Part shown: piece after piece, positions 1,250 through 30,416 of the stretch | Layout: the number at the start of each line of letters is the position of its first letter | Position numbering within the stretch: position 1 is the first letter of the stretch | Notes under the pieces: model-generated | Database searches by the model: none | What the model was told of the DNA's origin: nothing | The model's input: only the letters and a program-made list of their open reading frames with translations | IMG/VR virus record: IMGVR_UViG_3300008516_000251 | Location: 1 to 35,491 of that record | Source of the DNA: a virus | Reading direction: 5' to 3' (one strand) | Length of the DNA: 35,491 bases | Position numbers and translations under genes: made by a program

Positions 1250-4200
1250 TTAAGTAACTCTATTGTTGCCAATACGATATGGGCCTTCTTTTTTGCCGAC
1301 CTCAAAAGCAATTCCAGCAATCTCGAATGAGGCACCAGTGCTTGTTCTGGGCGACTCGGATATGCTGATTCTTACGCTAGTTATTTTCTGTCTCGAACAT
1401 GGAACTTCCAAAACATATGCCTGATCAACATAACTTGCGTCGAGACCCTCGCCATAGTACTCCGAGGCATCAAATGCCGTCAGATCTGTGGAGTCGTATG
1501 TGTTTACATCTGTCCAATATGGGTCGAAGTTGTAACCGACTTTCACCAGAAGTTTGTGCGTGCTTATGTTTTGAGCCACTATCAAGATGCGTTTTAATCT
1601 GGCAAATCCTGCTATCCCAGCAAAAGAATACCAGCCAGTTTCAATCGCCAATTCTGGGCTATATCCGTCAACGCCATCGACATACCCAGTATTTTGATAA
1701 TGGACACTTCCATCATCTTTTTTGAGAATATATGAATCACTATCTTGTCGCCACATTATATCGGTTCCTTGGTGTTGGCTCCAAGTGCTCCACATACCAT
1801 AGTGCCAATCGAAAACAAGAGAATATCCGTCTGCCAAATTAGACAGCCAAAGAACCTGATCATTCTCTGGCATAACAACACCAGATGTCAACCAATCGCC
1901 ACTGTGCCAGTTCTGAACTGGGTCACCAAATGCGCTAATCTGTAGTTTTCTATTTATCAAATAGAAATTCTCATCAGAGGCAGCAAATACAACTCCTTGC
2001 GGAGTTTGCAGGATGAGTTTAGGATTACTACAACCAACAGTATTAGACAATAAACTAGGATCATAGTAGTTGTTTCCAGTCCCAAGATTATCATAGCCAA
2101 GCCCATAAGTCATATAGATGCTATTCTCTTTAAATATCAGCAGTCTGTCTTGAAACTCTTCTAATGCATATATTCTGCCACCGTCGGCATTACACTCAAG
2201 AGTTAAATAATCAGAATGCTCAATGCCAAAACCCTTATCAATCGGCTTTGAATATCTTATTAAAACTCCTGGCCTTCTTTCATCAACCACAAAATGCCTA
2301 TTTTGGTATAGTTCATGAACTCTAAACTGCGGCGGCTGAATGTTTTCTAAAATGCCTCCAGTAGTATAAAGTGCTTCCTGTTCTGCCAAGTCAACATCAG
2401 AGATGCTATCTACTATAGAATCTGCCCGTGCTGTGCTATCGTTTCTTGAAGTCACACACCTATACCAAATGGTGCCATTGCCTGTCGTTCTGTATATGAC
2501 TATCGCAACGCTTGATCGTTTGGTAAAAGTCAGCGTCGGCACACTTATCAGAGTTTTTGTGTTTCCAGCAGATGTGGCGATGGTCACCGCTGGAGATGGA
2601 CTAGATTGATGTCTGTTATCTTTTCTATCAGTCCACTCATATACGGCAACATAAGAATATGTTTTATCAGCAGTTAAGTTTCCAGCCCCATTAAGCGCCA
2701 CAACTAATTTGTGCGGATAAGTTAAGAATCCTTGTTCATATGTTTCTTGACCGTCAAACTCCCAAGGCATAGAGCCAGGGAAAATCAGCACATCTTCGGT
2801 CTCTACTGTCTTAACATTTGATGTAGCGGTTGCGATTAGCACTCTGTCTTGTGCTACATATTCCGCCTGATTATCGTAAATAGATTCTGCCTTCAACGCG
2901 CCAACCATCGCACTCCAGTCAGTAATGGCAGCAGAGCCAGTTACAAAAGATGCTGGGTTTTGATAATGAGCACCATTAACAAGAAACTTACCAAACAGTT
3001 GAGACGACTTTTCTATAATGATATAAGTCCATTGAGATGAGATGTCAACGCCAGCGTGACCATTGTGTGGCAATAGTATTATGAAATCGTTTGTTCCGTC
3101 TGTCCACGGCTTACCATAAATCTGTGCGCCCATCTTAAGATCGATTGTAGAACCACCCGCACTACCTGTTCCGCCAGAATCCTCAAACGAGTTATATTGA
3201 ACCTCTCTGTCCCAAGCAGGAGAGTTTTGTGATTGATCTTCCAAAGTCCAGTAAACATACGCGTTTGTGGCGTCATGTGCCGCACCAGTCATATTGACAA
3301 TGACATAACTAGCAACTCCAACAGTCCACACCGTATCTTCGGTGACTGTCAAATTACACTGCTCATCAAAGCCAAGAGCATAAATAATACGAGTTGCCGC
3401 ACCAGACTCTTCGTAAGTTAACAGAACTCCCTTGTCATCATCCCACTGAAAACAGGCCACCAATTGCGGAGAGGTTGAGGCAGCCAGTGCCTCGTCATAA
3501 TAGGCAGCCACTGCTGATGTGGTTTTAAAACAAATAACCGCTGGAACATCGTTTCCATTATTGACTATATATGAGATGGCAATAGTTCTGTTTGAGCCAC
3601 CAATATAACAGGCGTCCAGGACATCGCGGAAACCTGCTGCAGCGACTCTAATTGAGCCGTTAAGAGAGTTTAATGTGACAGCAGCACCTATTGCTCCAGT
3701 TGTGGTGTTTATTGAGCGATATACAACATGTTTGGTAGAGTCATCAATGTAAATTAAAAATAGCCCGTTACTCCCAGTAGCGATTACTCTTGGGGTGCAG
3801 TCAGAATCTCCATCCAGATCTTCATTATCAAGCGGTCTATCAGTCGCAGACGCCCAAGTTCTGGCATAGATGCCAGAGCCGCCAGCCACCTCATCAGCCC
3901 TATATGCTGACGCAAAGACCTCGTCGCTCAAAGCAACTTCAACAGTTGTGGTTGTAACATCAGCCCTAGCATAGAATGGCTCATTGAATACTGTAGAGTA
4001 ACCGATATAGTCAACTACATCAAAATCAGAGCCATCATATACTTTAACCTGGAATGTATTCCCATGTAGAACGGGGATATCATCATACGAGGATAACCAC
4101 TCTTCACTGTGGGCTGCTATTTCTGTAGTTCCGTGTCTTTTACTAATTACTCCAGCCTTTTCGTAGATACCATCCTCTACGCGAGTTAGCCCCTTTGGCC

Positions 4201-4273
4201 CAAGTTTTGGGTCGGTATCTGTATCTAGTCCACTTGCCAAAGATGCTGGAACTAAAGATTTTGTAATCGCCAT
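1250..4273 (-). CDS. Tail nozzle-like (stabilisation) protein, 1007 aa
   Basis: Large beta-rich protein. Residues about 670-790 match the pattern of short-tailed phage nozzle/tail-tube B-type proteins: a RYSKP segment, then a block of the form ALEEFQDRLLIFKENSIYM, then NTVGCSNPKLILQTPQGVVF and a propeller-like VFDWHYGMWSTW stretch. In podoviruses such proteins form the distal nozzle below the adaptor ring, through which DNA leaves. Its place in the tail block next to the adaptor and a fibre fits. The start ATG has GGAG upstream, and the gene lies 15 nt after the fibre gene and 15 nt before the S74 gene. It contains two Asp-Gly-Tyr tripeptides. The fold assignment is by motif resemblance only. 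A generic tail beta-propeller protein is the alternative. Confidence 0.6.
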   Translation of the reverse strand: MAITKSLVPASLASGLDTDTDPKLGPKGLTRVEDGIYEKAGVISKRHGTTEIAAHSEEWLSSYDDIPVLHGNTFQVKVYDGSDFDVVDYIGYSTVFNEPFYARADVTTTTVEVALSDEVFASAYRADEVAGGSGIYARTWASATDRPLDNEDLDGDSDCTPRVIATGSNGLFLIYIDDSTKHVVYRSINTTTGAIGAAVTLNSLNGSIRVAAAGFRDVLDACYIGGSNRTIAISYIVNNGNDVPAVICFKTTSAVAAYYDEALAASTSPQLVACFQWDDDKGVLLTYEESGAATRIIYALGFDEQCNLTVTEDTVWTVGVASYVIVNMTGAAHDATNAYVYWTLEDQSQNSPAWDREVQYNSFEDSGGTGSAGGSTIDLKMGAQIYGKPWTDGTNDFIILLPHNGHAGVDISSQWTYIIIEKSSQLFGKFLVNGAHYQNPASFVTGSAAITDWSAMVGALKAESIYDNQAEYVAQDRVLIATATSNVKTVETEDVLIFPGSMPWEFDGQETYEQGFLTYPHKLVVALNGAGNLTADKTYSYVAVYEWTDRKDNRHQSSPSPAVTIATSAGNTKTLISVPTLTFTKRSSVAIVIYRTTGNGTIWYRCVTSRNDSTARADSIVDSISDVDLAEQEALYTTGGILENIQPPQFRVHELYQNRHFVVDERRPGVLIRYSKPIDKGFGIEHSDYLTLECNADGGRIYALEEFQDRLLIFKENSIYMTYGLGYDNLGTGNNYYDPSLLSNTVGCSNPKLILQTPQGVVFAASDENFYLINRKLQISAFGDPVQNWHSGDWLTSGVVMPENDQVLWLSNLADGYSLVFDWHYGMWSTWSQHQGTDIMWRQDSDSYILKKDDGSVHYQNTGYVDGVDGYSPELAIETGWYSFAGIAGFARLKRILIVAQNISTHKLLVKVGYNFDPYWTDVNTYDSTDLTAFDASEYYGEGLDASYVDQAYVLEVPCSRQKITSVRISISESPRTSTGASFEIAGIAFEVGKKEGPYRIGNNRVT

Positions 4274-4288
4274 ATAATCAATTCTCCG

Positions 4289-7200
4289 TTAGTCGCCAAT
4301 TCTTTCTATATACACATGCGCACACGCCATATCAAATGTTGTGTCTGTTGTGTTCTTTCTGTATACAATTAAGTGTCCAGTATCGCTGGCGGCCATATAG
4401 TCTACCCACTCAAATGAGTTACCAGTATATGTGCCCGCTGTTATATAACCAGAGTGTGACGCATAGAATGTTCCGCCAGCAACGCTGGCTTGCGTCACAT
4501 TTTTCCACCTAATATAAAATCTGCCAGCGTCGTCCGTTGGCGATTTGAAAAGCGCTCCGAGCGATATGCGATATGTGCCAGCCACAGCAAATGTAAATGT
4601 TCCATCGGAAGCGACAGAAATATCTTTAGATCCCCTATCAGCCACGGAATTCTCAAAACTGAGCTGATAGGGCGTATTATCAGCAACTATACCAGTTGTT
4701 GTTCTTTCTAGTCTCTCGCTGTCTGTGGCGATATATGCTTGAGCATATGCGTCTAGATCTGGGGCAGCATAGCCGTCCAGATCGACACCAATTACCAGAC
4801 TTTCATCCCCACCAGGATCGTCAACAGATACATCTATCAGCCCGCCACCTATTATTTTTCCTTCAAGGTAGTCTACTGTAGAGTCATCTACAGAGACCAT
4901 CACTTGATATGAGTCTGCCCCTCCACCACCACCTCCTGGTATTGCCCAATTACCCTTACCATCTAAAAAGTGTGTCGCTATGTTATCAAGTTTTGGTAGT
5001 AAGCCGTGCTCTGAAGTTGTAGCATCTAAATCCGTATTATCGTCGGGAGTTGCCAGATCGTCTAACTTAATCGCGTCAGCACCACCGCTCTCGTGGCGTG
5101 TATTATGATTGTTAAATGTCGCCTGATCTACATACCCATCTTCGACCCAATCCATTGTAGCATATGCGTCTAGATCTTGGGCACCAGAAGGCACTGCCCA
5201 GTTTCCCTGTCCGTCGAGGAAATGAGTATCATCGTTATCTAGTTTTCTTAACAAGCCGTGCTTTGAAGTTGTAGCATTTAAATCTGTATTATCATCAGGA
5301 GTTGCCAAATCGTCTAACTTAATAGCGTCTCCGCCACCACTTTGATGGTCGGCAGCATGAGTTTTTGGAGGCTGATTGTCAGCCAACTCTCCGCTTAAAC
5401 CAGCAACAGAGATTTCATCTCCGCCACCATTCTCGTGAGACGAGGCATGGGCAATAGGAGCACCAGAAGGCACCGTCCAACCACCCTGGCCATCTAAATA
5501 ATGAGTAGCATCATTGTCTAGTTTTTTTAACAAGCCGTGCCTTGAAGTTGTAGAATCTAAATCTGTATTATCATCGGGGGTTCTTAAATCGTCTAGTTTT
5601 ATAGCATCTGAACCAGCAGCCTGATGATCTGCAGCATGATTAACGGGGTATTGCCTCTGGCCCAACAGACCAGTAAGACCAGTAACACTTATTTCATCAT
5701 GCCAACCACTTTCATGGGAAGTATGATGCTGCTTCGGATTCTGTTGATCGGCCAATAATCCGCTTAAATTGCTAACATTTATTTCATCGGCTCCTCCGTT
5801 TTCGTGTCTGCCACTATGATCGTTAAAATCTATCAACGGTGTATAGCCATCTGCCAACGGCCTTGTCCAGTTCCCTTCCCCATCTAAATAATGATCGCCA
5901 TCATTATCGAGTTTTGGTAGCAAACCATGTTCTGTAGTTGTAGAGTTTAAATCTGTATTATCATCGGGAGTATCTAGATCGTCTAGTTTTGGTTTTACCC
6001 AGTTGCCCTGCCCATTAAGATAACGACCAGGATTATTGTCCAATCTTCTCAACAGCCCGTGCTCTGAAGTTGTAGCATTTAAATCTGTATTATCATCGGG
6101 AGTTCTTAAATCGTCTAACTTTATAGTATCTCCACCACCCTGTTGATGATCTGCGGCATGATTAACGGGGTTTTGGTCATCGGCCAATAGGCCAGACAGA
6201 CCAGTTACCAAGATATCATCTCCGCCACCATTCTCGTGCCACAGATGATGTGGGCTTGGTGGTTGCCACTCGGCCAACTGACCAGACAAACCATCAACAG
6301 AGATTTCATCTGCTCCACCATTTTCGTGTCTGGCACTATGATTGTTAAAATCTGCCAACGGAGCATAGCCATCTTCAACCCAATCCATTGTGGCATATGC
6401 ATCTAGATCTGGAGTACCAGGGGGCTCTGACCAGTTTCCCTGTCCATCAAGATAGTGACTGTCATCATTATCGAGTTTCCTTAAAAGCCCATGTTCTGTA
6501 GTTGTAGAGTCTAAATCCGTATTATCATCGGGAGTTCTTAAATCGTCTAACTTTATAGTATCTCCGCCACCCTGTTGGTGATCTGCGGCGTGAGCATCCA
6601 TAGCGATTTGTAAATCCTCATCCGCAGCAGGATTTAGTGTAGAAACAGTTATTCTGTTGCCACCAACCACTTTATCTTCAAGCCAGTTTGGTGTACTATC
6701 ATCGGCAGAGATCATAGATTTGTATGATTGGATTGACGGCACAATGTTTGTAGCACTTACACTACCAATCCTATGAATGTGAAGGCCACCCACACTCGGA
6801 ATCCCCGCACCACCCACGGAGATATACATCACATTGTATGATGTCGGATAGTTATCTGGCGCGTTGCCCAAAAATCCATATGATATAACATCGGACACCT
6901 CTAAAAATACAACGACTGGGACCCCTCTTAAGTTAGCATTTCCCCAGGTGCTTTTTACCTTAAACTCTTCAAGCGGCACGCCATTTTTCATTACAGAAAC
7001 TTCTGAATGGCCTCCACCATATGGGACTATAGTGGCGAGTGCTCTTATAAACGCATTTGGCGCTATAACATAATAGCCGTCCATATCTATGGTTATGGTT
7101 CCATAACCTGTTGAAATTGGACCATGAACGCCATATCCTTCCCATGTCATTTCCCCAATAGGCACATCGGCGGAAGACACATATGTATTTTGTGGAATAT

Positions 7201-7849
7201 AACCATAATAGCCATCTCTGGTATATAGTGTAGCACTAGCGATGTATCCGTCATTTGGTGGAGGACAAGATGGCACACTAAACCTTACGGTTTCGACATT
7301 AGCAGCAGACAGTTTGGTGATACTAACGCCCGCTCCAGCGACCAATTTTGAATATAGATAGTTAGGCTCTATGTCGTGGGTACTAACTTTCACTATAAAT
7401 CTTGAGTCAGTATAGTCTAAAACTGACGCTGTGAACGGGAACATATTCCAGTTTAGGTCTGATCTCGGCATAAACATAGCCGATTGCCCAGCAGTTAGTG
7501 TTATGTATGGCGCACCATTTATTGTTTTATCGTCTGCCTGCGGATAAACGCCTACATATGAGTCCATATCATAGGCGTCTTCGTTTCTAATAATTATAGT
7601 TTTGCCCTGATCAGCAACCGTAATGTTCTGTAAAGTAACCTTTGCGATATTGCCATAGCCTGGCGTAAGAACATATACGCCGCCAGTTTTGGCAATAATA
7701 TCACCTATAACATTTGTTTGTGGCAAGCCAAACGGGATCTCCGTATTTCTGGAGACAACATCAATTGCCTGTCCTATACCATCGTTAAGATCAACGAGTT
7801 CTTCAACATCGGAGAGAACTCGTTTAATCCTAACCCTACGGTTGCTCAT
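4289..7849 (-). CDS. Tail fibre / receptor-binding protein with tandem fibre modules, 1186 aa
   Basis: ATG 7849 (MSNRRVRIKR) is preferred over an in-frame GTG four codons upstream, because AGGTGG lies in front of it and it follows the adaptor stop by two bases. Residues 1 to about 375 are beta-rich. At about 378-420 there is a linker module (DDST..WLEDKVVGG) common in phage fibres. Residues about 420-980 hold six copies of a KLDDL.TPDDNTDL...HGLL.KLDN...LDGQGNW unit interleaved with HENGGADEI.V.GLSG.LAD units. A second DDST..YLEGKIIGG linker follows at about 986. The last 140 residues look like a C1q/TNF-type jelly-roll head. It is likely a trimeric fibre that recognises the host surface. Seven Asp-Gly-Tyr tripeptides are present. 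Which receptor it binds cannot be read from the sequence. Confidence 0.8.
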   Translation of the reverse strand: MSNRRVRIKRVLSDVEELVDLNDGIGQAIDVVSRNTEIPFGLPQTNVIGDIIAKTGGVYVLTPGYGNIAKVTLQNITVADQGKTIIIRNEDAYDMDSYVGVYPQADDKTINGAPYITLTAGQSAMFMPRSDLNWNMFPFTASVLDYTDSRFIVKVSTHDIEPNYLYSKLVAGAGVSITKLSAANVETVRFSVPSCPPPNDGYIASATLYTRDGYYGYIPQNTYVSSADVPIGEMTWEGYGVHGPISTGYGTITIDMDGYYVIAPNAFIRALATIVPYGGGHSEVSVMKNGVPLEEFKVKSTWGNANLRGVPVVVFLEVSDVISYGFLGNAPDNYPTSYNVMYISVGGAGIPSVGGLHIHRIGSVSATNIVPSIQSYKSMISADDSTPNWLEDKVVGGNRITVSTLNPAADEDLQIAMDAHAADHQQGGGDTIKLDDLRTPDDNTDLDSTTTEHGLLRKLDNDDSHYLDGQGNWSEPPGTPDLDAYATMDWVEDGYAPLADFNNHSARHENGGADEISVDGLSGQLAEWQPPSPHHLWHENGGGDDILVTGLSGLLADDQNPVNHAADHQQGGGDTIKLDDLRTPDDNTDLNATTSEHGLLRRLDNNPGRYLNGQGNWVKPKLDDLDTPDDNTDLNSTTTEHGLLPKLDNDGDHYLDGEGNWTRPLADGYTPLIDFNDHSGRHENGGADEINVSNLSGLLADQQNPKQHHTSHESGWHDEISVTGLTGLLGQRQYPVNHAADHQAAGSDAIKLDDLRTPDDNTDLDSTTSRHGLLKKLDNDATHYLDGQGGWTVPSGAPIAHASSHENGGGDEISVAGLSGELADNQPPKTHAADHQSGGGDAIKLDDLATPDDNTDLNATTSKHGLLRKLDNDDTHFLDGQGNWAVPSGAQDLDAYATMDWVEDGYVDQATFNNHNTRHESGGADAIKLDDLATPDDNTDLDATTSEHGLLPKLDNIATHFLDGKGNWAIPGGGGGGADSYQVMVSVDDSTVDYLEGKIIGGGLIDVSVDDPGGDESLVIGVDLDGYAAPDLDAYAQAYIATDSERLERTTTGIVADNTPYQLSFENSVADRGSKDISVASDGTFTFAVAGTYRISLGALFKSPTDDAGRFYIRWKNVTQASVAGGTFYASHSGYITAGTYTGNSFEWVDYMAASDTGHLIVYRKNTTDTTFDMACAHVYIERIGD
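4910..6592 (-). repeat. Interleaved tandem modules inside tail fibre gene
   Basis: At least six copies of a TPDDNTDL/HGLL/GQGNW module, of roughly 45-50 residues each, alternate with HENGGADEI/GLSG modules. Copies differ at many silent and non-silent positions, so this is an old protein-level repeat and not a recent DNA amplification. Confidence 0.75.
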
Positions 7850-7851
7850 TA

Positions 7852-10800
7852 CTACCACCACCTATGTTTGGAGCCACGATAAACATCTACCACAGTTTTT
7901 GGTTTTCCTACATCTTGCTCGGCAGAGCGTGTGATCCTCTTCTCTACCTCTCGCAACTGCATCATGTAAGCAGAAGGATCTTCTTTCTTTAGCGCACATG
8001 CTTTGACTGCGGCTGAAAGTATAACATACTCCTGCCAATGGTTGACAAACCTAAATGTATCAGCAGGATCATCCATAGCCGTTGGCAGTGGTATATATTC
8101 CAATCTGACAGTATCTGACCAATTGGGGATCGGATGAAACTCAATATTCTGACCAAGCACAATATATCTGGTATTCCAATTATTGGTAACATATGAGTGA
8201 TCATAGCGTTCGTCATAATTGTAGCGCTCGATTATAGCATATCCGTCTGGGTTTGAACTGTCTCTAACAGCAACACCCTTTATCTTGTAGAAATCGCTAG
8301 GGAGACTATAGCCCTTTGTTCCAGAAACAATGCTAATGTCACCATAATTAATGAAATGTGAATCATCATGCATAATTACCAGATCATAGAAAGCGGCTAT
8401 CGAAGATTCAATCCACTCTGTTAACTGGGCATCGTTGAAGTCATCTCTTGCCCAATCACCTCTGTTTCTCACAGCAAACTGAAGATTGCGTAGGGTTTCA
8501 GAAGTTGGGGCAGTCAGTTGTTTCGAGATATCTCGTTTGTTGAGATATCTAACGAAACTCTCTTCAACCTCTTTCTTCTCCATCACGAATGCCGACGGAT
8601 CTTGTTTCATAGTAGTTGACAGTTTACCACAAACATCTGCCAGAATCCAACCATAGAAGAAAAAGTGTTGTCCATAGATGCCATCGTCCAAGTGATGTGA
8701 ATAATTTGGATCGCTTGTCGGTGTGTCTCCGAAAAATGCCGCCGAGTCAGAAAGCGTTTGATAGCCATCTGTAACTAATTGTGGTTTGCTCACATAGTCT
8801 AACTTGATGGTTCCTGACCAAGTTGGCGTCGGCTGGAGCCAAAGGCTCCTCGCCCCTTGTAGCGCATACCTTGTTGAATTCTCGTCAGAAACATATGAAA
8901 CATCATATCTTTCGTTCCAGTTAAAACTAGAAAGTGCTTGATATTCGTCTGCCAGCGCAGCATCGTATACAGCCACGCCAAGAAGTTTATAGAAATCGCG
9001 TGGCAGACTATATTCTCTATCTCCACTAGACACAGATATGATAGACTCTTTATAAAAATACGATGGATCATGAATGGTAATAAAATCGTGAAGATTCAAC
9101 ATAGAGGTGTTTATCATAGATGTGATTAGATCGTTCGTAATTTGATCTACTGACCACCCTCCGCGACCCCTAATAGCCTTACGCATACCACCTACGGTTT
9201 CAATGCTTCCATTCCAAGTAGTTGGTTTGGTACGATTTCTTTCAGCAAATGCTTTTATTCTTTCCTCACATCTCTGTTGTTGAGCCATAAAGACTTGAGG
9301 ATCTGTTTTCATAAAAGCCGCAGCCTTCTGCGCCACATCAAGCACAAGCCACTCGATCCAACGATTTGGAAAACTAACAGTATCGCTTGGATTCACCAAC
9401 AATTCTGGTGAGGCAATATACTCAAGTCTTGCTTGTAGACTACCATATGGGTTGGGAGTAATGTATATATAATCCCCTCTAATGGTAAATCGCCTGTCCG
9501 TTACGGCCTTCGTTGCGTCTGCGCTGGTTTTAAGAAACCTAGAAAACTCTTGCCAAGTACACTCTTCTATGGAATAATACCCATCTTGATAATCTGAAGA
9601 AGAATCGTAATTAACAGACATTCCAATCGCTTTATAGAAATCGGAAGGTAGGGCAAACTCTGCGCCACCTGTCATCGTAAAATAGTGAAATGATAAGAAA
9701 TGAGAGTCGTCATTTAGCGACATAACATCTACCAGCGCACCCATACTACCATTAACCCACTCTGTGAGTTGTGAATCTACAATATCAGTTCTTAACCAGC
9801 CACCACGATTCCTGACGGCCAACTGTATGTTTTCTAAAGTATCTACGGCTGAAGTGCGTTTTTGCTCATGTATATCTTGTACGGCGAAGTTGGCAATCCT
9901 ATTTTCCGCCTCTGATTTTAAAGCAACGAAAGCGGCAGGATCTTTGCCAAGTGAAACGCTGGTTTTTACACAAGTGTTTAGCACAATGTGCTCTTGCCAA
10001 TGATTAAAAGTATCGAAAGTATCAGTAGGATCAACTAAAGCCGTATATGTGGGGATATACTCAAGACGAACGACGGCTGTCCATGTGGGAGTCGGATGAA
10101 AGTGTATCTCGTCCCCACGGATATGATATCTGGTATTTGCTTTTGTGCCAGTATAGGTGTCATCATAACGCTCTGTCCAATTGAATTGCTTCATTGTGGC
10201 ATAGCCGTCAGTATATGAGGCGTCGTAGGCATCCGCTCCAACACACTTATAGAAACCTGCTGGGAGACTATAAGAGCGAGTTCCAGAAACGACAGAGATA
10301 TCTTCAAACTCGACAAAATGCGATGGATCTGATTTGGCGACCAGATCTCTCAATTCTGCTATGCTACTGTTAATTGACTCTGTGAGTTGAGAATCTGTTA
10401 CATCAGTCCTACGCCATCCTCCACGGTTTCTGATGGCGACTTGTAGATCTTCAAGCGTGCCAGATGTTGAACTGGTCTTTTGCTCGTGGATATCTACAAT
10501 ACCAAATGTAGAAATACGCTCTTCAGCCTTTTGTAACTGTGCTGCGTAAATCTGTGGGTCAGTGCCTTTAAAGGCACTGGCTTTCATACACACATCAAGC
10601 ATCAGCCATTCGTGCCAATGGTTAAATGTCTCAAAAGTGTCGGTAGGGCTAACTAGAGCCGTATATTTAGGAATATATTCAAGACGAACCACATCAATGT
10701 AATCTGGGGTAGGATGTAGATGGATTTGGTTTCCACGGATATGATATCTGGTATTAGCCTTTGTTACGGCATAGGTATCATCATAACGCTCTGTCCAATT

Positions 10801-12975
10801 GAATTGCTTCATTGTTGCGTAACCATCCGAATATCCAGCATCATGCATATCAACACCAACGCATTTATAGAAATCTGCTGGCAGATCATATGCTCTTGTT
10901 CCAGAGGCGGTGGTAATATCTTCATATTCAACGAAGTGAGATGGATCGGTCTTGGCAACCAAGTCTCTCAATGCTGCTAGAGATCCATTAATCCACGCTG
11001 TTAGTTGGCTATCATTTATCTTATCTTTAGCCCAGCCACCTCTCGCCCTTACAGCAAGTCGTAGGTTGCCCAGCGTGCCATCGGTACTTGGAGTCGTTTG
11101 GTCTATAGCATTTTGTACAGCGATTGCTTTAATTCTTTCCTCAACCTTCTGCTGTTGTGCCATATATACTTGAGGGTCTGTTCCCTTAAGAGCAGAACAC
11201 TTCATAGCACAGTCAAGCACCACCCATTCCTGCCAGTTGTCATACAGGGATACTGTATCCGTTGGATTTGTCAATCCAGCAAATGTCGGAATATACTCTA
11301 ACCTTACAGTCCCAGTCCAAGTTGGCGTAGGATGTAGATATAGGTTTCCGCCTCTTAAATGATACCTTGTCTCCAATTTAGACGAGGTTGCCACATCGTA
11401 GCGCTCTTCCCAGTTAAAGTGATTTATTGCCTGATATCCGTCATCAATGGCAGCGTCATAAACATCTACACCAACGGCTTTCAAAAAGTCTGAAGGCAGC
11501 GCATATTCTCTATCACCAGAACTTACGGCAATATCTTCATAGGTTACGAAGTAGGTCGGGTCAATCTGGATGAGAACATTTCTCAAGCCAGAAATAGATG
11601 AGTTGATCCATTCGGTCAGTTGCGAGTCAGTCATATCGGTTCTTAACCAATTACCCCTATTTCTGATAGCCAGTTGTAAGTTTTCTAGGGTTCCAGCGGT
11701 CGAAGTACGCTTTTGATCATGGATATCTACTATAGCAAGGCTGGCAATACGCTTTTCTGCCTCGACCTTTTGAGCCATATAAGCAGCAGGATCTTTGTCA
11801 ACAGAAATGGTTGTTTTAATGCACGCATCCAACACAATATACTCGTGCCAGTGATTAAAGGTGTCGAAAGTATCTGTAGGATTAACTAAAGCAGTATATT
11901 TAGGGATGTATTCAACCCTAACCATATTTGTCCAGTCTGGAGTAGGGTGGAAGTGTATCTTGTTGCCACGGATGTGATATCTCGTGTTTGATTGGCTTAC
12001 GGCATATGTGTCGTCGTATCTTTCTTCCCACGAAAACTGTTTCATTAGTGCGTAGCCGTCGCTTGCTGCGGCATCTACCACATCTACGCCGACGCACTTA
12101 TAGAAATCTGATACCAAATCATATGATCTCGTTCCAGATGCTACAGGAATCTCATCGTATTCTACAAAGTGAGACGGGTCTGTTTTACATACAAGATCTC
12201 TCAAGGCCGCTATAGAACCATTGATGAACTCGGTCAGTTTGGCGTCTGGAACATCACTACGACTCCAAGTGCCACGGTTTCTGACGGCAAGTTGTAGGTC
12301 TCGTAGAGTTTCCGCAGTTGAAGAGGGTCTTGGTGATGTGGCGTCTTGAACACCAGTTTTTACCAGCAACTTCTCTGCTTCAGTCTTTTGAGCGGCATAA
12401 ACAGCAGGATCAGTCTCCTCTTTGGCACATGCTTTAATTGCCACATCACAGACGATCCACTCTTCTCCGAGACCATTAATGGTGTCGAAGTCGTCCGAAT
12501 CACCAACTAAATCATCAAACTGGGGAACATATTCTACTCTAACAGTGCCACTCCAATCTGGCTCTGGCTGGAATTCTATGACATAGTTGCCTTCTTGCGT
12601 GTGTGTAGCGCCAGTTGAGCCATGAATCATATATCTGGTGGAGGCTTTTTCCGCAACATACATATCGTCGTAGCGCTCTTCCCATGAAAAAGATTCTAAA
12701 AGACTATAGCCGTCTGCGGTCGCATCGGACAATGCTACGCCCGACAGGCGGTAAAAGTCCGTTGGTAGCGCATATTCCTTTGTGCCCGACGAAATTGTTA
12801 TGTCCGTTCGTTCTAAATATCTCCACGGATCCACTTCGGACATAAGCGAATAAAACTTAAAGCAGGCGTCGTTTATCCAAGCATCTAACTGGGTATCGGT
12901 AATATAGTCGCCTCTCCATTCGCCACGATCCCTAATAAGGGTGCGAAGATCCCCAAGCGCAAGTCGTCTGGCCAT
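7852..12975 (-). CDS. Head-tail adaptor-like polyprotein with eight tandem adaptor domains, 1707 aa
   Basis: Eight consecutive units of 205-234 residues fill the whole chain, at residues 1-219, 220-425, 426-630, 631-836, 837-1042, 1043-1258, 1259-1492 and 1493-1707. Each repeats the same order: an LRxLxxAVRxRGxW helix, LTEWINxSI, SGTREYxLPxDFYK, FNWxERYDD, a beta strand ending HPTPxW, VRLEYIPxxTxLVxPTDT, then HWxEW and a C-terminal helix. One unit has the length and order of the single-domain adaptor (SU10-adaptor type) that normally forms a dodecameric ring under the portal. Its position after the capsid genes is the usual adaptor position. Units 2, 4 and 5 are the most alike. Units 1, 6, 7 and 8 are more divergent, and unit 7 has an insertion. 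ATG 12975 follows GAGGTG. Eight domains in one chain is highly unusual. The domain call is strong; the assembled architecture is unknown. Confidence 0.8.
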   Translation of the reverse strand: MARRLALGDLRTLIRDRGEWRGDYITDTQLDAWINDACFKFYSLMSEVDPWRYLERTDITISSGTKEYALPTDFYRLSGVALSDATADGYSLLESFSWEERYDDMYVAEKASTRYMIHGSTGATHTQEGNYVIEFQPEPDWSGTVRVEYVPQFDDLVGDSDDFDTINGLGEEWIVCDVAIKACAKEETDPAVYAAQKTEAEKLLVKTGVQDATSPRPSSTAETLRDLQLAVRNRGTWSRSDVPDAKLTEFINGSIAALRDLVCKTDPSHFVEYDEIPVASGTRSYDLVSDFYKCVGVDVVDAAASDGYALMKQFSWEERYDDTYAVSQSNTRYHIRGNKIHFHPTPDWTNMVRVEYIPKYTALVNPTDTFDTFNHWHEYIVLDACIKTTISVDKDPAAYMAQKVEAEKRIASLAIVDIHDQKRTSTAGTLENLQLAIRNRGNWLRTDMTDSQLTEWINSSISGLRNVLIQIDPTYFVTYEDIAVSSGDREYALPSDFLKAVGVDVYDAAIDDGYQAINHFNWEERYDVATSSKLETRYHLRGGNLYLHPTPTWTGTVRLEYIPTFAGLTNPTDTVSLYDNWQEWVVLDCAMKCSALKGTDPQVYMAQQQKVEERIKAIAVQNAIDQTTPSTDGTLGNLRLAVRARGGWAKDKINDSQLTAWINGSLAALRDLVAKTDPSHFVEYEDITTASGTRAYDLPADFYKCVGVDMHDAGYSDGYATMKQFNWTERYDDTYAVTKANTRYHIRGNQIHLHPTPDYIDVVRLEYIPKYTALVSPTDTFETFNHWHEWLMLDVCMKASAFKGTDPQIYAAQLQKAEERISTFGIVDIHEQKTSSTSGTLEDLQVAIRNRGGWRRTDVTDSQLTESINSSIAELRDLVAKSDPSHFVEFEDISVVSGTRSYSLPAGFYKCVGADAYDASYTDGYATMKQFNWTERYDDTYTGTKANTRYHIRGDEIHFHPTPTWTAVVRLEYIPTYTALVDPTDTFDTFNHWQEHIVLNTCVKTSVSLGKDPAAFVALKSEAENRIANFAVQDIHEQKRTSAVDTLENIQLAVRNRGGWLRTDIVDSQLTEWVNGSMGALVDVMSLNDDSHFLSFHYFTMTGGAEFALPSDFYKAIGMSVNYDSSSDYQDGYYSIEECTWQEFSRFLKTSADATKAVTDRRFTIRGDYIYITPNPYGSLQARLEYIASPELLVNPSDTVSFPNRWIEWLVLDVAQKAAAFMKTDPQVFMAQQQRCEERIKAFAERNRTKPTTWNGSIETVGGMRKAIRGRGGWSVDQITNDLITSMINTSMLNLHDFITIHDPSYFYKESIISVSSGDREYSLPRDFYKLLGVAVYDAALADEYQALSSFNWNERYDVSYVSDENSTRYALQGARSLWLQPTPTWSGTIKLDYVSKPQLVTDGYQTLSDSAAFFGDTPTSDPNYSHHLDDGIYGQHFFFYGWILADVCGKLSTTMKQDPSAFVMEKKEVEESFVRYLNKRDISKQLTAPTSETLRNLQFAVRNRGDWARDDFNDAQLTEWIESSIAAFYDLVIMHDDSHFINYGDISIVSGTKGYSLPSDFYKIKGVAVRDSSNPDGYAIIERYNYDERYDHSYVTNNWNTRYIVLGQNIEFHPIPNWSDTVRLEYIPLPTAMDDPADTFRFVNHWQEYVILSAAVKACALKKEDPSAYMMQLREVEKRITRSAEQDVGKPKTVVDVYRGSKHRWW
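7855..12975 (-). repeat. Eight in-frame tandem repeats of about 620 bp (adaptor domains)
   Basis: Unit starts on the minus strand are at about 12975, 12318, 11700, 11085, 10467, 9849, 9201 and 8499. Six of the eight units are 615-657 bp long. Unit 7 is about 702 bp because of an extra 30-40 codons. DNA identity between units is visible but interrupted, so this is a real coding duplication and not an assembly stutter. Confidence 0.85.
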
Positions 12976-13752: not shown

Positions 13753-14982
13753 TTAGGAAATTGCGATTCTTACATTGTGCCCTGGTGCTCGGCAAGCAAG
13801 TTGCGAGTAGGATCCAATACGACACTCTAGAGCGTCAGCATTGTAAACTCTCGAAACTCTCAAACCGTCATCGTCGATGATACGGACAGGCTTATCCATC
13901 GAGATGAGTTCCCAAGAATTAAGTTCTAGCAACCAGATTACTCCAGTTGGGCACTTGGTGCATGGAACACAATCGACAGGACCACCTGGTCCATATACCT
14001 GGATGGCGTCGTAGCCAGCCTTTGCCAGACCACCTGGGGCCCTTTGAACCTTGGAACCTAGTTCATTTACTAGTTGTCTCCAAGTATTAAAAGCCATCAG
14101 AGCGACATCTGGACGACCAGCACCTTGCTCGCCAACTTCGGCAGCAGCATTTACGATTGCTTCCTCGTAAGTGCTTCCGCTTCCATCATAACGAATACCA
14201 CCGAGACGCAAGACATCAACAGTTCTGTCAACGCCGAAGAAAGAACCCGCGCCAGGAGCGGTGGACGGAACCCACGCATCCAGACCCGAAACCTTTACAT
14301 TCGTGCTACCATTAGCAGCATCACTTTCTCTACAAATGTAGTCTCCAGCAGTTACGCCAGATCCCGTATCAATGGCCGTAAGCGCATCAACGGTCATCTC
14401 GCCAGTCTCGCGGTCGATATCGGTTACAGTAACATGGCCAGCAAGCACTGATCCGCCATCAGTATTGGAGAATACAAGTTCCATACCAGCGGAGAAGTTA
14501 TTGATGTCCTTTACAGTAGCCAACTGTAGGGAAGTACCAGAGGTTGTGGCATCACAACGACCGATAGAGCCAGTTCCACCTCTGAAAAGGTGAGTCTCTA
14601 GATCATTTGCCAAACCATTAATGGCTCTGTCTACAGAGTACTGAAGCCCCTTAATAAAGGCTCCTCTTTCTGACTTTGCGGCCAACACTGCCTCGGTTTC
14701 AATCCGACCAACTGAATAAGACTTAACAGTTGCGACCTGAAACTGTGCCAGTTCGGATGTACTTACATTTGCTTGTGCCGTTGCGAACGCGGCACCGATT
14801 CCTTGCGAATCTTCTACGATAACTGGGAAAGGAGTGAACCTACCTTCCGCAGGGGCTTTCTTTAGCATCGACAAAAACGGACGAGTGTTTTTATTGAATG
14901 CCAATTCTTCGATCTTTTGACCTCGATACAACTCTTTAAGAGCAGCATCAATAGCCGATCGTGTCATATTTCCAGCAGCCAT
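13753..14982 (-). CDS. Major capsid protein, 409 aa
   Basis: HK97-fold-type coat protein by pattern and context. The N-terminus (MTRSAIDAALKELYRGQKIEE, residues 5 onward) resembles an N-arm. The P-domain region includes QFQVATVKSYSVGRIETEAVLAA and FIKGLQYSVDRAINGLANDLE. The C-terminal part has RVYNADALECRIGSYSQLACRAPGHN. A 409-residue coat downstream of a scaffold gene is normal for this phage type. AGGAGG lies in front of ATG 14982. Hundreds of copies would build the head, and a strong terminator follows the gene. It contains no Asp-Gly-Tyr tripeptide, unlike the tail genes downstream. The exact subfamily is not determined. Confidence 0.85.
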   Translation of the reverse strand: MAAGNMTRSAIDAALKELYRGQKIEELAFNKNTRPFLSMLKKAPAEGRFTPFPVIVEDSQGIGAAFATAQANVSTSELAQFQVATVKSYSVGRIETEAVLAAKSERGAFIKGLQYSVDRAINGLANDLETHLFRGGTGSIGRCDATTSGTSLQLATVKDINNFSAGMELVFSNTDGGSVLAGHVTVTDIDRETGEMTVDALTAIDTGSGVTAGDYICRESDAANGSTNVKVSGLDAWVPSTAPGAGSFFGVDRTVDVLRLGGIRYDGSGSTYEEAIVNAAAEVGEQGAGRPDVALMAFNTWRQLVNELGSKVQRAPGGLAKAGYDAIQVYGPGGPVDCVPCTKCPTGVIWLLELNSWELISMDKPVRIIDDDGLRVSRVYNADALECRIGSYSQLACRAPGHNVRIAIS

Positions 14983-16083: not shown

Positions 16084-17967
16084 TTATCCCTGTGGTAGGG
16101 GTGCTTGAGGCGGTGCTTCAATTCCTCCCGCTGCGCCAGGAACTCCACCTAATGGAGACTGAACTTCTTGAGGAGCGGTTGTTGGACCCATGCCGCCAAC
16201 GGCTCCTGCTAAAGTTTCCTCTAACATCTCTGGCTGTGGAGGATTAAGTATCTCATCAGCATCTGCCAACCATCTTAAAATCAAATCCAATCTTGCCTGT
16301 TTCTCTCCGCGCAATTTAGCCCTCAAATAATAATGCGTTCCTAATTTAATACCTAGTGCTAGGTTTTGATATGGAAGTGGCTCTATATACTCGCCCTTTG
16401 CCAGCATATGCTCCATAGTTGCTTCAATATCATCCATCGCGCTGTTCATTAACGAATTATATTTTTCCAAGTCTGGGAAATCTAATAGGTTTCCAGCGAC
16501 ATCTTGCGTTATTAAACCAGCCTTCATCATATCGATAATTGTTTCCAACTTACCAGCGGGAGTATTGGGCAGAGATGAAGCGGGGTATACTTTGAGTATA
16601 AACTCGTCCTCATCCATTTTGACTTTTGACCAAGAGATCCTTTCCACAAAAGATTTGCCATTGTACTTGGACGAGAGTTCTTCCCCTCTCTCTTCTAGTT
16701 GTCTGGCACATCCGATAATCTTTTTGGCAAGATCAACAAACATATCTTCCCACTGCCTCGCTACAGTTGAAAATCTTTGAGTTTCTACATCCTGAAGCGT
16801 TCTTAACGCCACGCCAGATTCGATACCAGCGGGCTTTGTGCTTGTGGCTGAAAGTTGAGAAACTCCAGCGATTTCGAACGCCCTTTTATATAGGGTTTCT
16901 AGTTGAGAAAATACTTGGGGATGAATGGCAGGCGGGATCTCGATTTTTGGGGGCACATTTCCGCTATATTCTATTACACGAGCCGTCTCGTTTGACAATA
17001 ACTGATCATCGTGAACATCGGCTCCTCTCGGCTTTAGAATGTATGGCACAGATAGTAGATGCATATTGTCTCTTACTTTATTTAAGAGGTTGTTGATTTC
17101 TCTTTGTATGCCCTCCAATTCTTCTGCCAGTCCAATGCCGTGCCAACCCATTATATCCTTGACCCATCTAATAACTACAAATGGAAAACTGTCCTCATCC
17201 CACTCTTCGTCAAGCAGGACGCCGCTCTCCACACATATAACATGTCTGCCACTAATCTCTCCGCAAGACAAATGCCAAGCCTCATATACTTCTACCATGT
17301 CTCTCGCTGAAGCGTATCCGCTTCCAGTGGACAGTTTAGCAGAATATAGGGCTTTCTCGGAATCTGGGAACATAGCCAAGAGAGCCTCACGAGATACATA
17401 TTCCTTTTGAAACAAGGACTTTGGTTCTCCATCAAGTGCGGCGTTATCGTCTATCATCATTCTGCTTGGGTGTACTTTCTCCACAAAAACCTCTCCGTTA
17501 CGCTCAAAAACTTTAAGAACTCCAATACCATATATACAGGCATCTCTCAATGCGTCTGCGGCTCTGGCATGTGCTCCACAACTATACAGAATACCATCTA
17601 CAAATTTCTCGAGATCTTTGGCTCGCTGCTGCTGTTGCTCACTACCCTCTTCTGTAAGAAACCTTGGTCTTGGTTTATTTAGACCTATTTTACTCACAAC
17701 CGTGTCGGAAGCGCTCTTGACAACATTATATGTAATGCTTGCGGGCACAGACATCTCTCCAGTATCAGCATTGATGTTTGACACCGTCCAATCTCCAGGC
17801 TCAAAACCTTGAACATTTCTGGCCTTGTATAGTTTGGCAAATCTAATATAATCATCGAGTCTTCCTTCTTGCTCATTCTCAATATTGTCCACCGTCGAGA
17901 CCAGATCGAAAACAACCTCATCTGGTTCAGAATTATACCAATATCGCGTCGTGAGAGAGTTTGCCAT
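16084..17967 (-). CDS. Portal protein, 627 aa
   Basis: Typical podovirus portal. The N-terminal region has FAKLYKARNVQGFEPGDW and a VPASITYNVVKSASDTVVSKI segment. The core has DACIYGIGVLKVF and VHPSRMMIDD, followed by WVKDIMGWHGIGLAEELEGI, GIESGVALRTLQDVETQRFS and a C-terminal FPDLEKYNSLMNSAMDDIEA barrel-like region. The tail is Pro/Gly/Ala-rich. Twelve copies would form the ring at one capsid vertex for DNA entry and exit. It lies 14 nt after the terminase gene with GGAGCG in front of ATG 17967. The length is close to the usual range for this group. Confidence 0.9.
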   Translation of the reverse strand: MANSLTTRYWYNSEPDEVVFDLVSTVDNIENEQEGRLDDYIRFAKLYKARNVQGFEPGDWTVSNINADTGEMSVPASITYNVVKSASDTVVSKIGLNKPRPRFLTEEGSEQQQQRAKDLEKFVDGILYSCGAHARAADALRDACIYGIGVLKVFERNGEVFVEKVHPSRMMIDDNAALDGEPKSLFQKEYVSREALLAMFPDSEKALYSAKLSTGSGYASARDMVEVYEAWHLSCGEISGRHVICVESGVLLDEEWDEDSFPFVVIRWVKDIMGWHGIGLAEELEGIQREINNLLNKVRDNMHLLSVPYILKPRGADVHDDQLLSNETARVIEYSGNVPPKIEIPPAIHPQVFSQLETLYKRAFEIAGVSQLSATSTKPAGIESGVALRTLQDVETQRFSTVARQWEDMFVDLAKKIIGCARQLEERGEELSSKYNGKSFVERISWSKVKMDEDEFILKVYPASSLPNTPAGKLETIIDMMKAGLITQDVAGNLLDFPDLEKYNSLMNSAMDDIEATMEHMLAKGEYIEPLPYQNLALGIKLGTHYYLRAKLRGEKQARLDLILRWLADADEILNPPQPEMLEETLAGAVGGMGPTTAPQEVQSPLGGVPGAAGGIEAPPQAPLPQG

Positions 17968-17981
17968 TTAAATCGCTCCGT

Positions 17982-19418
17982 TTAGTAAATATCTCTTTCT
18001 CGTTTCTTTCTCTCTTCCACTCTTTTAAGAGTCTGTTCAAACAGTCTCTCCTCTTCGCCTTCCCAGTATTCTTTCGAGCCAATTTCTGGCATTTCTGTTT
18101 TATAAGTCTCTTGGTAATGATATGCTTGCCTATAAGCGTATAACATCGCATCTGTCAAGTGATTTGGCAACGCTGGGTTCTCTTCCACATCGCCATTCGG
18201 CTTCACCTTCCAAGTAAGATCTGTAAGTTCCGTTACCAGATCTTCACAAGTTCTATCTAATATCTTTACTTTTCCAGCAACGAAATCTGAATTCATAACC
18301 GCTATCCACTCGTGCTTCGTGGTTTTTTCAGCCGCTTGGACAGGGATGTCGTATCTGTATGCCAGTTCCTGCGTGATTGTCTTGGCTCCAGAGCCACCAG
18401 TATCCGCTACAATATATATTCCTGGATAAGAACCTATATATGACTTCAATTGAGCGGCTATACTGTCTGGGAGCATCTGTGGTTTCTTGAAACAATCTAT
18501 AATGTAAAAATGTGGATCATACTTTCTATAACATCCAACTATAAAGGCACAATCGCTGTTCCAGCCGATGTCAACCCCTGCTATATAAGCAAATTTATTA
18601 GTAGTTTCTTGAGGTAACTTATGGCTTAAGTTAAAACTAGGATTGAACCTATACACTAATTCGCTTTGCTCCACAGCCCATTGTCCAAGATACTCTCTCT
18701 GGAATATAGGGTCGTCTTCGATCTTGGGATTAGCGGCCTTAAGTTCTCGTATCTCTTCAAGATATTGTGAGGCTATATGGGGGTTTTGATCCGTTTTCCA
18801 ATGAAACTTTTCCCAATTAGGTAGATCTTTGGTAGTGGCATCATAGAAAATGCCCTTCATGACCGTCCTGGGCGTTCCTGTGAGGTATAACCTTCCGTGG
18901 GGACGCGCATCTAACAGCGTGGGCATCAAGATAGAATCGATAAGATATCTTAAGAGAGGAAATGAGAATGAACCGCTCTCGTCTATCGCCACCAAATCAA
19001 ATGCGGCACCCAAATATCGTTCTGCCTCTTCCATAGTGCCTTTGGCACCGCCACACTCTATAGAACTTCCATTGGGAAACACAGCCGTAAGAGAAACTTT
19101 ATTGAAAGTTATATTTAGACTATGAACAGCGTCTAGTTTCTGTAATATTTCCCAAGCGATACGCTTTATGTTTTCTCTGGTTAAAGCCAGATAAAGACAT
19201 CTACTGTTAGGATTGCGTAGACATTGTATAGCCATAAGAGAGCATATAGTCCAAGACTTGCCTGCTCTCCTGCTGGTGAGGATCGCTATCTTACGATGTG
19301 TTGTAGAGGCTACTGCTCGTTGCTCTGGGAACAATGAGTCAAGAATCTCTTCGGCCTTGCGCTTTGGCGCACAACGGCGTTCAAGTTCTTGTATTACTGC
19401 TAACAGCCTCTCGTCCAA
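17982..19418 (-). CDS. terL: Terminase large subunit, 478 aa (TTG start)
   Basis: ATPase-nuclease motor that packages DNA into the head. Walker A is SRRAGKS at residues 49-55. Walker B ends FDLVAIDE with D146 and E147. The coupling motif LTGTPR is at 179-184. RNase H-like nuclease residues are D283 (GVDIGW), D339 (IVADTGG) and D423 (LTDAMLYAYR). Only TTG 19418 gives a full-length ATPase domain: AAGGAG lies 11-16 nt upstream, and the next in-frame Met is beyond Walker A. The start is three bases after the stop of the 57-residue gene, so translation is probably coupled. The partner small subunit is not recognised by sequence. Confidence 0.93.
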   Translation of the reverse strand: MDERLLAVIQELERRCAPKRKAEEILDSLFPEQRAVASTTHRKIAILTSRRAGKSWTICSLMAIQCLRNPNSRCLYLALTRENIKRIAWEILQKLDAVHSLNITFNKVSLTAVFPNGSSIECGGAKGTMEEAERYLGAAFDLVAIDESGSFSFPLLRYLIDSILMPTLLDARPHGRLYLTGTPRTVMKGIFYDATTKDLPNWEKFHWKTDQNPHIASQYLEEIRELKAANPKIEDDPIFQREYLGQWAVEQSELVYRFNPSFNLSHKLPQETTNKFAYIAGVDIGWNSDCAFIVGCYRKYDPHFYIIDCFKKPQMLPDSIAAQLKSYIGSYPGIYIVADTGGSGAKTITQELAYRYDIPVQAAEKTTKHEWIAVMNSDFVAGKVKILDRTCEDLVTELTDLTWKVKPNGDVEENPALPNHLTDAMLYAYRQAYHYQETYKTEMPEIGSKEYWEGEEERLFEQTLKRVEERKKRERDIY

Positions 19419-23826: not shown

Positions 23827-23953
23827 CAGTTTCTTGATTTCAAATAATATTACCGATCCTGTGGAGATCTCCGAGATAAAGAAAATGTTTGGGAAAAAAA
23901 GAAGTAGAGTTGTAAACACAAGGAGGTTTAAAGATGGTTACGAGAGTCTGTAG
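23756..23953 (+). CDS. Small basic hypothetical protein, 65 aa
   Basis: AAGGAGGGCG lies right before ATG-ATG at 23756/23759. The reading frame overlaps the coiled-coil gene for 71 nt and the HNH gene for 20 nt. The product is basic, with a possible helix-turn-helix-like middle (DPVEISEIKKMFGKKRSR). The strong ribosome site is the main support. The overlaps on both sides make it less certain than its neighbours. Confidence 0.45.
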   Translation: MMRNFNPIARIVLRAMVTAGKNIDSFLISNNITDPVEISEIKKMFGKKRSRVVNTRRFKDGYESL

Positions 23954-25130
23954 CGTACCTGGATGTGGTGGGCGTTATCACGCGAAGGGATACTGCCAAA
24001 AACACTATAGCCGAAGTTGGAGAGGTAAGCCGTTGGAGGAGATGATAAGCAAATCTATAGGTGGGATACTGTGCCGTCTGTGCGACACTTGGAAACCAGC
24101 AGACGAGTTTGACATCTCGAAGAGTTGTAAGATCGGGAGGCGTTTCACTTGTAAAGTATGCGACAAGGGACTACACGGCGAGAATAATAAAAGAGTCAGT
24201 CGGGAATATTATCACGCCAATAAAGAAAAGTGTAATAAAGCCACTCAAGCGTGGCAGACAGAAAACAAAGATAAACTGCGGTTAACTCAAAAATATTGGA
24301 TCGCACACAGATACAATCACGACGAGATTTACAAGAAAGCACACCTTATCCGCACACGCACCAACAAAGCCTATAAAGTATTTCTTGACAGCGGCGTACA
24401 TATGGTATCTAGAAACGGCGATATGGACTATGAGGCAATCTTTGAGCATCTGGGTGAATGTCCTGGAGAATACGGAAGAGGATCTGGACTAATGACATTC
24501 GACCATATTATCGGATTAAGGCTACTCGACCTCACAGATCCCATAGAATGGAAAATCGCTGTTCATCCCCGCAACATTAGATGGATGTTGTGGGAAGACA
24601 ACTATCAGCGGGATCGCGGCTGGACTCAAGAAATTCTAGAACTCTATAGGGAACTACACAAAGAAGTGGCTCCTGTCGAGACGAAGAAATGCGCACGATG
24701 TAAAGAAACAAAAGAACTAACTAAAGAAAACTTTCCAATACATAAACAAACATACTGCCGAATATGTGATAGGGCTATGGCCAGAGAATATTATAATAAA
24801 GACAAAGAAAAACACAAAATACGAAAAAGGAAACAACATTTGGCATATTATGTAGCGAACGGAAAAAGACTGGTTAAGTATATCAAGGAAGTTGGTGGCT
24901 GTGAGGATTGCGGAGATGTAGACTTGCCAGTCTATTGCTATGATTTTCATCACCTAAAGCCAGAGGAAAAGAAGTTTTCAATATCTGAAAAAATGGGACG
25001 CGCTCCTTGGACTACTTTGGCAAAGGAAATTAAAAAATGTGCCCTACTTTGTTGTAACTGCCATCGCAAGAGAACAGCCGTGGCGAACAACTATCATTGG
25101 TATTTGGAGGAAGATGATGAAGATTGCTAG
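23934..25130 (+). CDS. Double-HNH endonuclease with zinc fingers, 398 aa
   Basis: AAGGAGG precedes ATG 23934. Domains in order: a C6-x4-C11-x9-C21-x2-H24 finger; a zinc ribbon C47..C50/C73..C76 with the WKPADEF pattern; a first HNH (FDH at 189-191, HPRN with N214, DNYQR near 223); a second zinc ribbon C253..C256/C275..C278; and a second HNH with structural cysteines (C323, C326, DFHH 337-340, LLCCNCHRKR 371-380). The second HNH looks complete, and the first lacks the cysteine pairs. It probably nicks or cuts DNA, either as a homing-type enzyme or as the nuclease partner of the overlapping methyltransferase. Two ribbon-HNH halves in one chain suggest an internal duplication of the architecture. 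Confidence 0.8.
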   Translation: MVTRVCSVPGCGGRYHAKGYCQKHYSRSWRGKPLEEMISKSIGGILCRLCDTWKPADEFDISKSCKIGRRFTCKVCDKGLHGENNKRVSREYYHANKEKCNKATQAWQTENKDKLRLTQKYWIAHRYNHDEIYKKAHLIRTRTNKAYKVFLDSGVHMVSRNGDMDYEAIFEHLGECPGEYGRGSGLMTFDHIIGLRLLDLTDPIEWKIAVHPRNIRWMLWEDNYQRDRGWTQEILELYRELHKEVAPVETKKCARCKETKELTKENFPIHKQTYCRICDRAMAREYYNKDKEKHKIRKRKQHLAYYVANGKRLVKYIKEVGGCEDCGDVDLPVYCYDFHHLKPEEKKFSISEKMGRAPWTTLAKEIKKCALLCCNCHRKRTAVANNYHWYLEEDDEDC

Positions 25131-27631: not shown

Positions 27632-27937
27632 TTAATCATTACCTACTACTCCTCCGCTCACAGCCCTATATAGCACAAGTAGGTTCCACACATCTTTTAT
27701 AGAAATGCTTTCAAAAGGATTTATATTGGCGACTTTATATTTGCCTATAAAATCCTTGGCACCATCCGCTGGGATTATGATACGCTTGGTAGTATCTACA
27801 ATTCTCCCATCAAGTTCAGATGACATCACTATCAAGTCTATCTGTAACTTGTATGTGGGGCCGCCGTTGGAAAAGTCGGCTATTACTTTGTAATTATTTA
27901 TGTCAAAAATATGACCATCGGGCATAATATATGTCAT
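27632..27937 (-). CDS. Hypothetical protein, 101 aa
   Basis: ATG 27937 (MTYIMPDGHIFDINNYKV) is preferred over one nine bases upstream. It has AGGATG at the right distance and overlaps the fibre gene stop as TAATG, the junction used repeatedly in this genome. The product is beta-rich, then helical (SISIKDVWNLLVLYRAVSGG). It sits between a fibre and the lysis-type genes, a common place for fibre chaperones, but I see no motif to prove that. Confidence 0.55.
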   Translation of the reverse strand: MTYIMPDGHIFDINNYKVIADFSNGGPTYKLQIDLIVMSSELDGRIVDTTKRIIIPADGAKDFIGKYKVANINPFESISIKDVWNLLVLYRAVSGGVVGND

Positions 27938-30045: not shown

Positions 30046-30048
30046 TAG

Positions 30049-30408: not shown

Positions 30409-30416
30409 TTTTCACC

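Follow-up and report, generated by a model that had tools for sequence, protein, structure and literature searches.

The 35,491-nt virus record IMGVR_UViG_3300008516_000251, which we analysed over its whole length (the window), carries a gene that fuses eight head-tail adaptor domains into a single protein chain. We think it likely that twelve such chains would make eight covalently joined, stacked rings, a multi-ring tail barrel. The gene and its units are as follows.

7852..12975, minus strand: fused head-tail adaptor gene, eight units, 1707 aa (open reading frame, self-comparison, and PF24175)
12316..12975, minus strand: unit 1 (aa 1-220), putative nozzle-side unit, in which the signatures of single-domain relatives are retained at the a1-a2 and a3-a4 loops
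12895..12921, minus strand: a1-a2 loop of unit 1, EWRGDYITD, putatively nozzle-side by analogy with T7 gp11 (PMC6702177)
12406..12423, minus strand: a3-a4 loop of unit 1, KEETDP, the highest-scoring segment in the unbiased scan
11698..12315, minus strand: unit 2 (aa 221-426), inner (unit comparison)
11083..11697, minus strand: unit 3 (aa 427-631), inner; it shares 71% identity with its counterpart, unit 3, in L003
10465..11082, minus strand: unit 4 (aa 632-837), inner, the unit modelled with AlphaFold2
9847..10464, minus strand: unit 5 (aa 838-1043), inner (unit comparison)
9205..9846, minus strand: unit 6 (aa 1044-1257), inner, fast-evolving (unit comparison)
8503..9204, minus strand: unit 7 (aa 1258-1491), inner, the most diverged, with about 26 residues inserted ahead of helix a3
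7852..8502, minus strand: unit 8 (aa 1492-1707), putative portal-side unit; it shares 71% identity with the final unit in L003
7855..7911, minus strand: C-terminal arm VGKPKTVVDVYRGSKHRWW, restricted to the last unit and to single-domain adaptors; it corresponds to the embracing arm of SU10 and T7

The open reading frame (7852-12975, minus strand) starts with ATG and has zero internal stops. When we compared the chain with itself, identity peaked (23.5%) at an offset of 206 residues, and the units begin at aa 1, 221, 427, 632, 838, 1044, 1258, and 1492. These results confirm the coordinates and the unit count of an earlier sequence-only reading, which had described eight domains in a single 1707-residue frame lacking internal stops. 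That reading had also reported that the frame contains no ribosome-site pattern, and we found no internal ATG, GTG, or TTG with an upstream Shine-Dalgarno-like motif in the eight-unit chain or in its 5-unit relative. Its estimate that about 14% of the genome is spent on the array was accurate as well (5124 of 35,491 nt, or 14.4%). Successive units are joined by linkers of about 11-13 residues that are rich in serine and threonine and have a common composition rather than one cleavage motif.

To identify the family of the units, we compared the chain with PF24175 (SU10_adaptor), which matched it in eight separate stretches (E = 1.6e-100, 335.8 bits, against a curated cut-off of 27). A sequence search of the PDB with profiles of the units and of the nozzle candidate gave only chance matches, so structure comparison was needed. 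The AlphaFold2 model of unit 4 (built from 15 sequences; pLDDT 85) is an up-down bundle of four helices (residues 6-17, 26-47, 159-174, and 179-201) with an inserted beta domain (54-140). With this model as the query, Foldseek matched the SU10 adaptor in the PDB (7z47, E = 1e-7, TM 0.74), as well as the Pa223 tail, KHP30, GP4, and others, and also chains 7qoj_D and 7qog_B of the crAss001 tail-barrel and portal assembly. As modelled, the unit is an adaptor or ring-protein fold with a fibre-dock domain, as in T7 and SU10. The beta domain, which is the counterpart of the fibre dock, has been kept in every unit.

The units are mutually 29-67% identical at the protein level, and the longest exact DNA repeat inside the array is 38 nt. 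(Ratios of dN/dS between units were uninformative because dS was saturated.) Unit 1 is 73% identical to unit 1 of L003, a relative with five units, and an extra hairpin insert is common to both. Units 6 and 7 may form rings with a special role. The assembly of metagenomes can go wrong at tandem arrays, so that a gene with a single unit or a few units might appear as a long array. However, given the divergence of the units and the short exact repeats, a collapsed or expanded assembly is unlikely, and multi-unit chains recur in four other contigs that form two independent pairs. We therefore consider an assembly artefact to be extremely improbable. The sequence-only reading had named two findings that would overturn it, such an artefact and unit folds that do not resemble adaptors. 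We found neither, and both the profile search and the fold of the unit model support its identification of the units as adaptor domains.

We sought viral relatives using the first, last, and inner units as queries. L002 and L003, which are syntenic with the window and come from two other metagenomes, carry a five-unit version of the gene (1055 aa); there are 225 differences between them in 17 kb. Another two syntenic contigs, L047 and L048 (99% identical over 8 kb), have three units (638 aa). More distant syntenic relatives (L024, L025, L015/L016, and L027) encode a single-domain adaptor at this locus. Because syntenic relatives carry five, three, or one unit, the count of 1, 3, 5, or 8 is a property of the group. 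In a third sample, a 6.1 kb contig (L004) encodes a portal and a terminase with 100% protein identity to those of the window, and it ends before the array.

Searches with the portal, terminase, and nozzle candidate yielded no additional fused arrays, and there was no match in the GTDB genome collection (84,980 species). Among the INPHARED phages, the eight-unit chain and the unit consensus had no match, and the 3-unit chain and a single-domain relative had matches at E 0.3-0.9 only. Several matches in BFVD of 300-410 aa, such as A0A5Q2W8Q5 (410 aa), might be two-domain fusions. In the open-access literature that we searched, no fused adaptor array is reported. We also noticed two adjacent single-domain adaptor genes of the SU10 type (228 and 206 aa) in L020 and L021 (G006:39693-40946 and G007:7203-8456); a two-ring neck is a possible role for these pairs.

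The other structural genes of the window lie around the array.

17982..19418, minus strand: terminase large subunit (family matches)
16084..17967, minus strand: portal protein (SU10_portal and P22_portal)
13753..14982, minus strand: major capsid protein (weak match to SU10_MCP; PHROG 14242)
4289..7861, minus strand: tail-fibre-like protein, 1190 aa (position after the adaptor, repeats, and a weak Fibritin_C-like match)
1250..4273, minus strand: candidate nozzle protein, 1007 aa (position and synteny only; conserved in all syntenic relatives)

The order in the window is terminase, portal, a 321-aa gene, major capsid protein, two small genes, adaptor, fibre, and the 1007-aa gene. In the numbering of SU10, portal (gp6), capsid (gp9), adaptor (gp11), long fibre (gp12), and nozzle (gp17) follow in that order (PMC9509320). 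The gene order of the window is SU10-like, and the fibre gene adjoins the adaptor gene as gp12 follows gp11. The portal, capsid, and adaptor proteins all match families of the SU10/P22 type. The nozzle candidate itself had no family match and no PDB sequence match; its distant syntenic homologues match virion-protein families in PHROG. Pfam and PHROG scans of the large genes of the window found no match to tail-tube or tape-measure genes, although divergent ones could escape such scans.

The fibre region varies among the relatives. Where the window has one fibre gene of 1190 aa, L003 (12467-16050) has two in succession (409 and 784 aa), and L047, which has three units, has no fibre of about 1190 aa between the adaptor and the nozzle candidate. 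Elsewhere in the window, positions 27937-30045 encode a 702-aa fibre-like protein that consists of tandem repeats of 72 to 171 bp (DIDGYAEKSLLDSYQETGPYITFT...). There are 42 occurrences of the tripeptide DGY among 9468 residues (2.7 expected), with varied codons, and almost only in tail proteins and small surface-like proteins (mainly 4289-12975 and 27937-30770). This excess arises partly from repeats, with 18 occurrences in the 702-aa protein and eight in the adaptor chain. On the strand opposite to the structural genes, at 23934-26331 (plus strand), a gene for an HNH endonuclease-like protein (398 aa) overlaps one for a C-5 cytosine methyltransferase (430 aa).

Judging from its ends, the record seems to cover a nearly complete circular genome: a single gene of L003 (493 aa) matches both of them (35061-35417 and 1-1234) in the correct frame and order. 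The homologue of this end-spanning gene in L047 matches a tail fibre family in PHROG. The C-terminal part of the end-spanning gene has the signature DSRVK.NI ... G.MAQDLE, which resembles that of a tail-fibre intramolecular chaperone.

To see how the units of a chain differ in their likeness to single-domain adaptors, we compared each unit along its length with the single-domain relatives, using an unbiased scan of 9-residue windows. Compared with the other units, the first units stood out as closest to the single-domain relatives at exactly two sites, a3-a4 (2.29) and a1-a2 (0.96). The signature at a3-a4 is KEETD-like, the signature at a1-a2 is [YF][IV][TS]D, and both loops lie on the same side of the up-down bundle. 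The last units stood out in the same way at the C-terminal arm (2.28; DVGKPKTVVD...). Among the 120 ways to choose one unit per chain, (first, first, first) ranks first and (last, last, last) ranks second. The inner units, in all three fused chains, have neither the loops of the first units nor the C-terminal arm. In the beta domain and helix a4, the first units resemble the single-domain relatives less than the other units do, so the loop signal is local and does not reflect general conservation. (The three first units are homologous to each other, so this should not be counted as three independent events.) Overall, an ancestral two-faced adaptor has become a series whose first and last units each retain a different one of its faces.

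Structures of other phages suggest what these faces contact. Where the adaptor has a single domain, the same molecule contacts the portal and the nozzle. The a1-a2 loop of T7 gp11 meets the nozzle (PMC6702177), the adaptor embraces the portal with its C-terminal arm in SU10 and in T7 (for T7, PMC6702177), and residues 15-26 of R5 in crAss001 adapt to the six-fold muzzle (PMC10172136). In the fused chain, the C-terminal arm of podovirus head-tail adaptors is present in the last unit alone, and we predict by analogy that it grips the portal. The orientation of the loops is likewise borrowed from distant structures and is putative.

The kinship of the units also follows their position. In a tree, the two first units, of the window and of L003, form a group (100/100), as do the two last units (96/95). 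The inner units mix: units 2, 4, and 5 of the window are near unit 2 of L003, and unit 3 is near unit 3. In the 3-unit chain, the final unit is most similar to the final units of the 5- and 8-unit chains (58-63%). Because the first and last units group by position and the inner units mix, it appears that the two ends are fixed and that inner units were gained or lost between them.

These results bear on how the units are arranged in the virion. If each chain linked neighbours covalently within one 12-mer adaptor ring, as the ring-forming fold of the domain would allow, then every unit should touch both the portal and the nozzle; instead, the portal arm is found only on the last unit and the nozzle-side loops only on the first. 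Furthermore, five or eight units cannot tile a 12-mer ring because neither number divides 12. The linkers could connect neighbours within a ring, and their length does not decide the question because a span of up to about 40-45 Å would reach either the next ring or a neighbour in the same ring. We consider this side-by-side arrangement to be very unlikely.

Alternatively, the last unit alone might sit in the portal ring, and the other seven might form flexible arms on the outside that carry tail fibres via their fibre-dock beta domains. Every unit has such a beta domain, T7 gp11 is monomeric off the portal (PMC6702177), and the linkers appear flexible in the AlphaFold2 model of the natural 3-unit chain. 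(In that model, each domain is folded, but the linkers have pLDDT below 50 and pTM is 0.35, so the arrangement of the domains is not predicted.) However, if only the last unit were in a ring, it should also have retained the nozzle-side loops, and it is the first unit that has them. We view this arrangement as unlikely. The splitting of the end signatures between the first and last units favours a linear stack over both the one-ring and the free-bead layouts.

A protease might also cut the chain into single adaptors before assembly, and flexible linkers rich in serine and threonine do lie between all of the units. But these linkers are alike in composition alone and do not share a cleavage motif, and in the genes that we scanned we recognised no protease. 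Moreover, the inner units would still have neither end signature after being cut, which implies a stack of different rings in any case. Such processing seems quite unlikely to us. The stack of rings was one of three models proposed by the sequence-only reading, and it is the one favoured by the split end signatures and by unit numbers that cannot tile a 12-mer.

We infer both the 12-fold stack and its orientation, the latter by analogy with the structures of T7, SU10, and crAss001. In the proposed mechanism, the phage would be short-tailed and podovirus-like, and the gene product would be a covalently linked multi-ring tail barrel. The dodecameric portal would recruit twelve of the 1707-residue chains, and each adaptor domain of a chain would enter a different ring, so that the virion would have eight coaxial 12-mer rings. 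Unit 8 would clasp the portal through its C-terminal arm, units 7 to 2 would pile up head to tail, and the loops of unit 1 would meet the six-fold nozzle, with the linkers connecting successive rings. At 4.6 nm per ring, which is extrapolated from crAss001 (23 nm for five rings), eight rings would be about 37 nm long. The barrel would hold the nozzle and the fibres further from the head, and the number of units in the gene would set its length.

In phages, tail length depends either on a tape-measure protein or on a fixed complement of genes for rings or tubes. The viruses described here probably lengthen the tail via extra rings within one protein chain. It is somewhat more probable than its opposite, in our judgement, that a chain contributes to as many stacked 12-mer rings as it has units (1, 3, 5, or 8), so that the gene acts as a genetic ruler in which inner units are duplicated between fixed, specialised ends and no tape-measure protein is involved. 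If the domain count does fix the number of rings, this would be a third solution to the control of tail length, and among relatives with 1, 3, 5, and 8 units, tail length would be expected to rise in equal steps. The units also suggest a route from a single adaptor to a barrel, with the nozzle face kept on one end unit and the portal face on the other.

The closest known single-domain systems are the adaptors of SU10 (Kuravirus gp11), T7 (gp11), and KP32, which share with the fused chain of the window a helix bundle with an inserted beta domain (the fibre dock) and a C-terminal arm, which in SU10 and T7 embraces the portal. SU10 also shares the gene order portal, major capsid protein, adaptor, fibre, and nozzle (in the window, the nozzle is a candidate by position). 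These adaptors have a single domain (about 200-250 aa) and form one 12-mer ring, whereas the window has eight domains per chain, with the end signatures on different units. The fused genes of L047/L048 and L002/L003 have the same locus, the same end signatures, and syntenic genomes, with three and five units instead of eight. In L020 and L021, two PF24175 domains also lie side by side, but they are in separate genes with no fusion, and in L020 no other protein of the window was matched at the threshold used.

The tail barrel of crAss001 has five stacked dodecameric rings, encoded by four paralogous genes, and measures 23 nm in length; according to the authors of that work, only one such ring had been seen in other podoviruses (PMC10172136). 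Its ring proteins R1-R5 (gp43, gp40, gp35, and gp34) have the same adaptor fold as the units of the window (7qoj_D and 7qog_B), and both genomes encode several such domains. In crAss001, the rings lie between the portal and the muzzle and form a long barrel, as proposed for the fused chain of the window. The crAss001 rings are made from separate genes with 15-31% identity, one of which serves two rings, and the window has one covalent chain. Furthermore, the portal and capsid of the window match SU10/P22-type families, and the fused chain would be an independent parallel to the crAss001 barrel. Because that barrel already has five stacked rings, the architecture proposed here is not new in kind, and the suggestion of a new kind of extended neck or tail does not hold to that extent. 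What appears to be new is the fusion into a single chain and the 1-3-5-8 series of copy numbers, which would set the length of the tail genetically.
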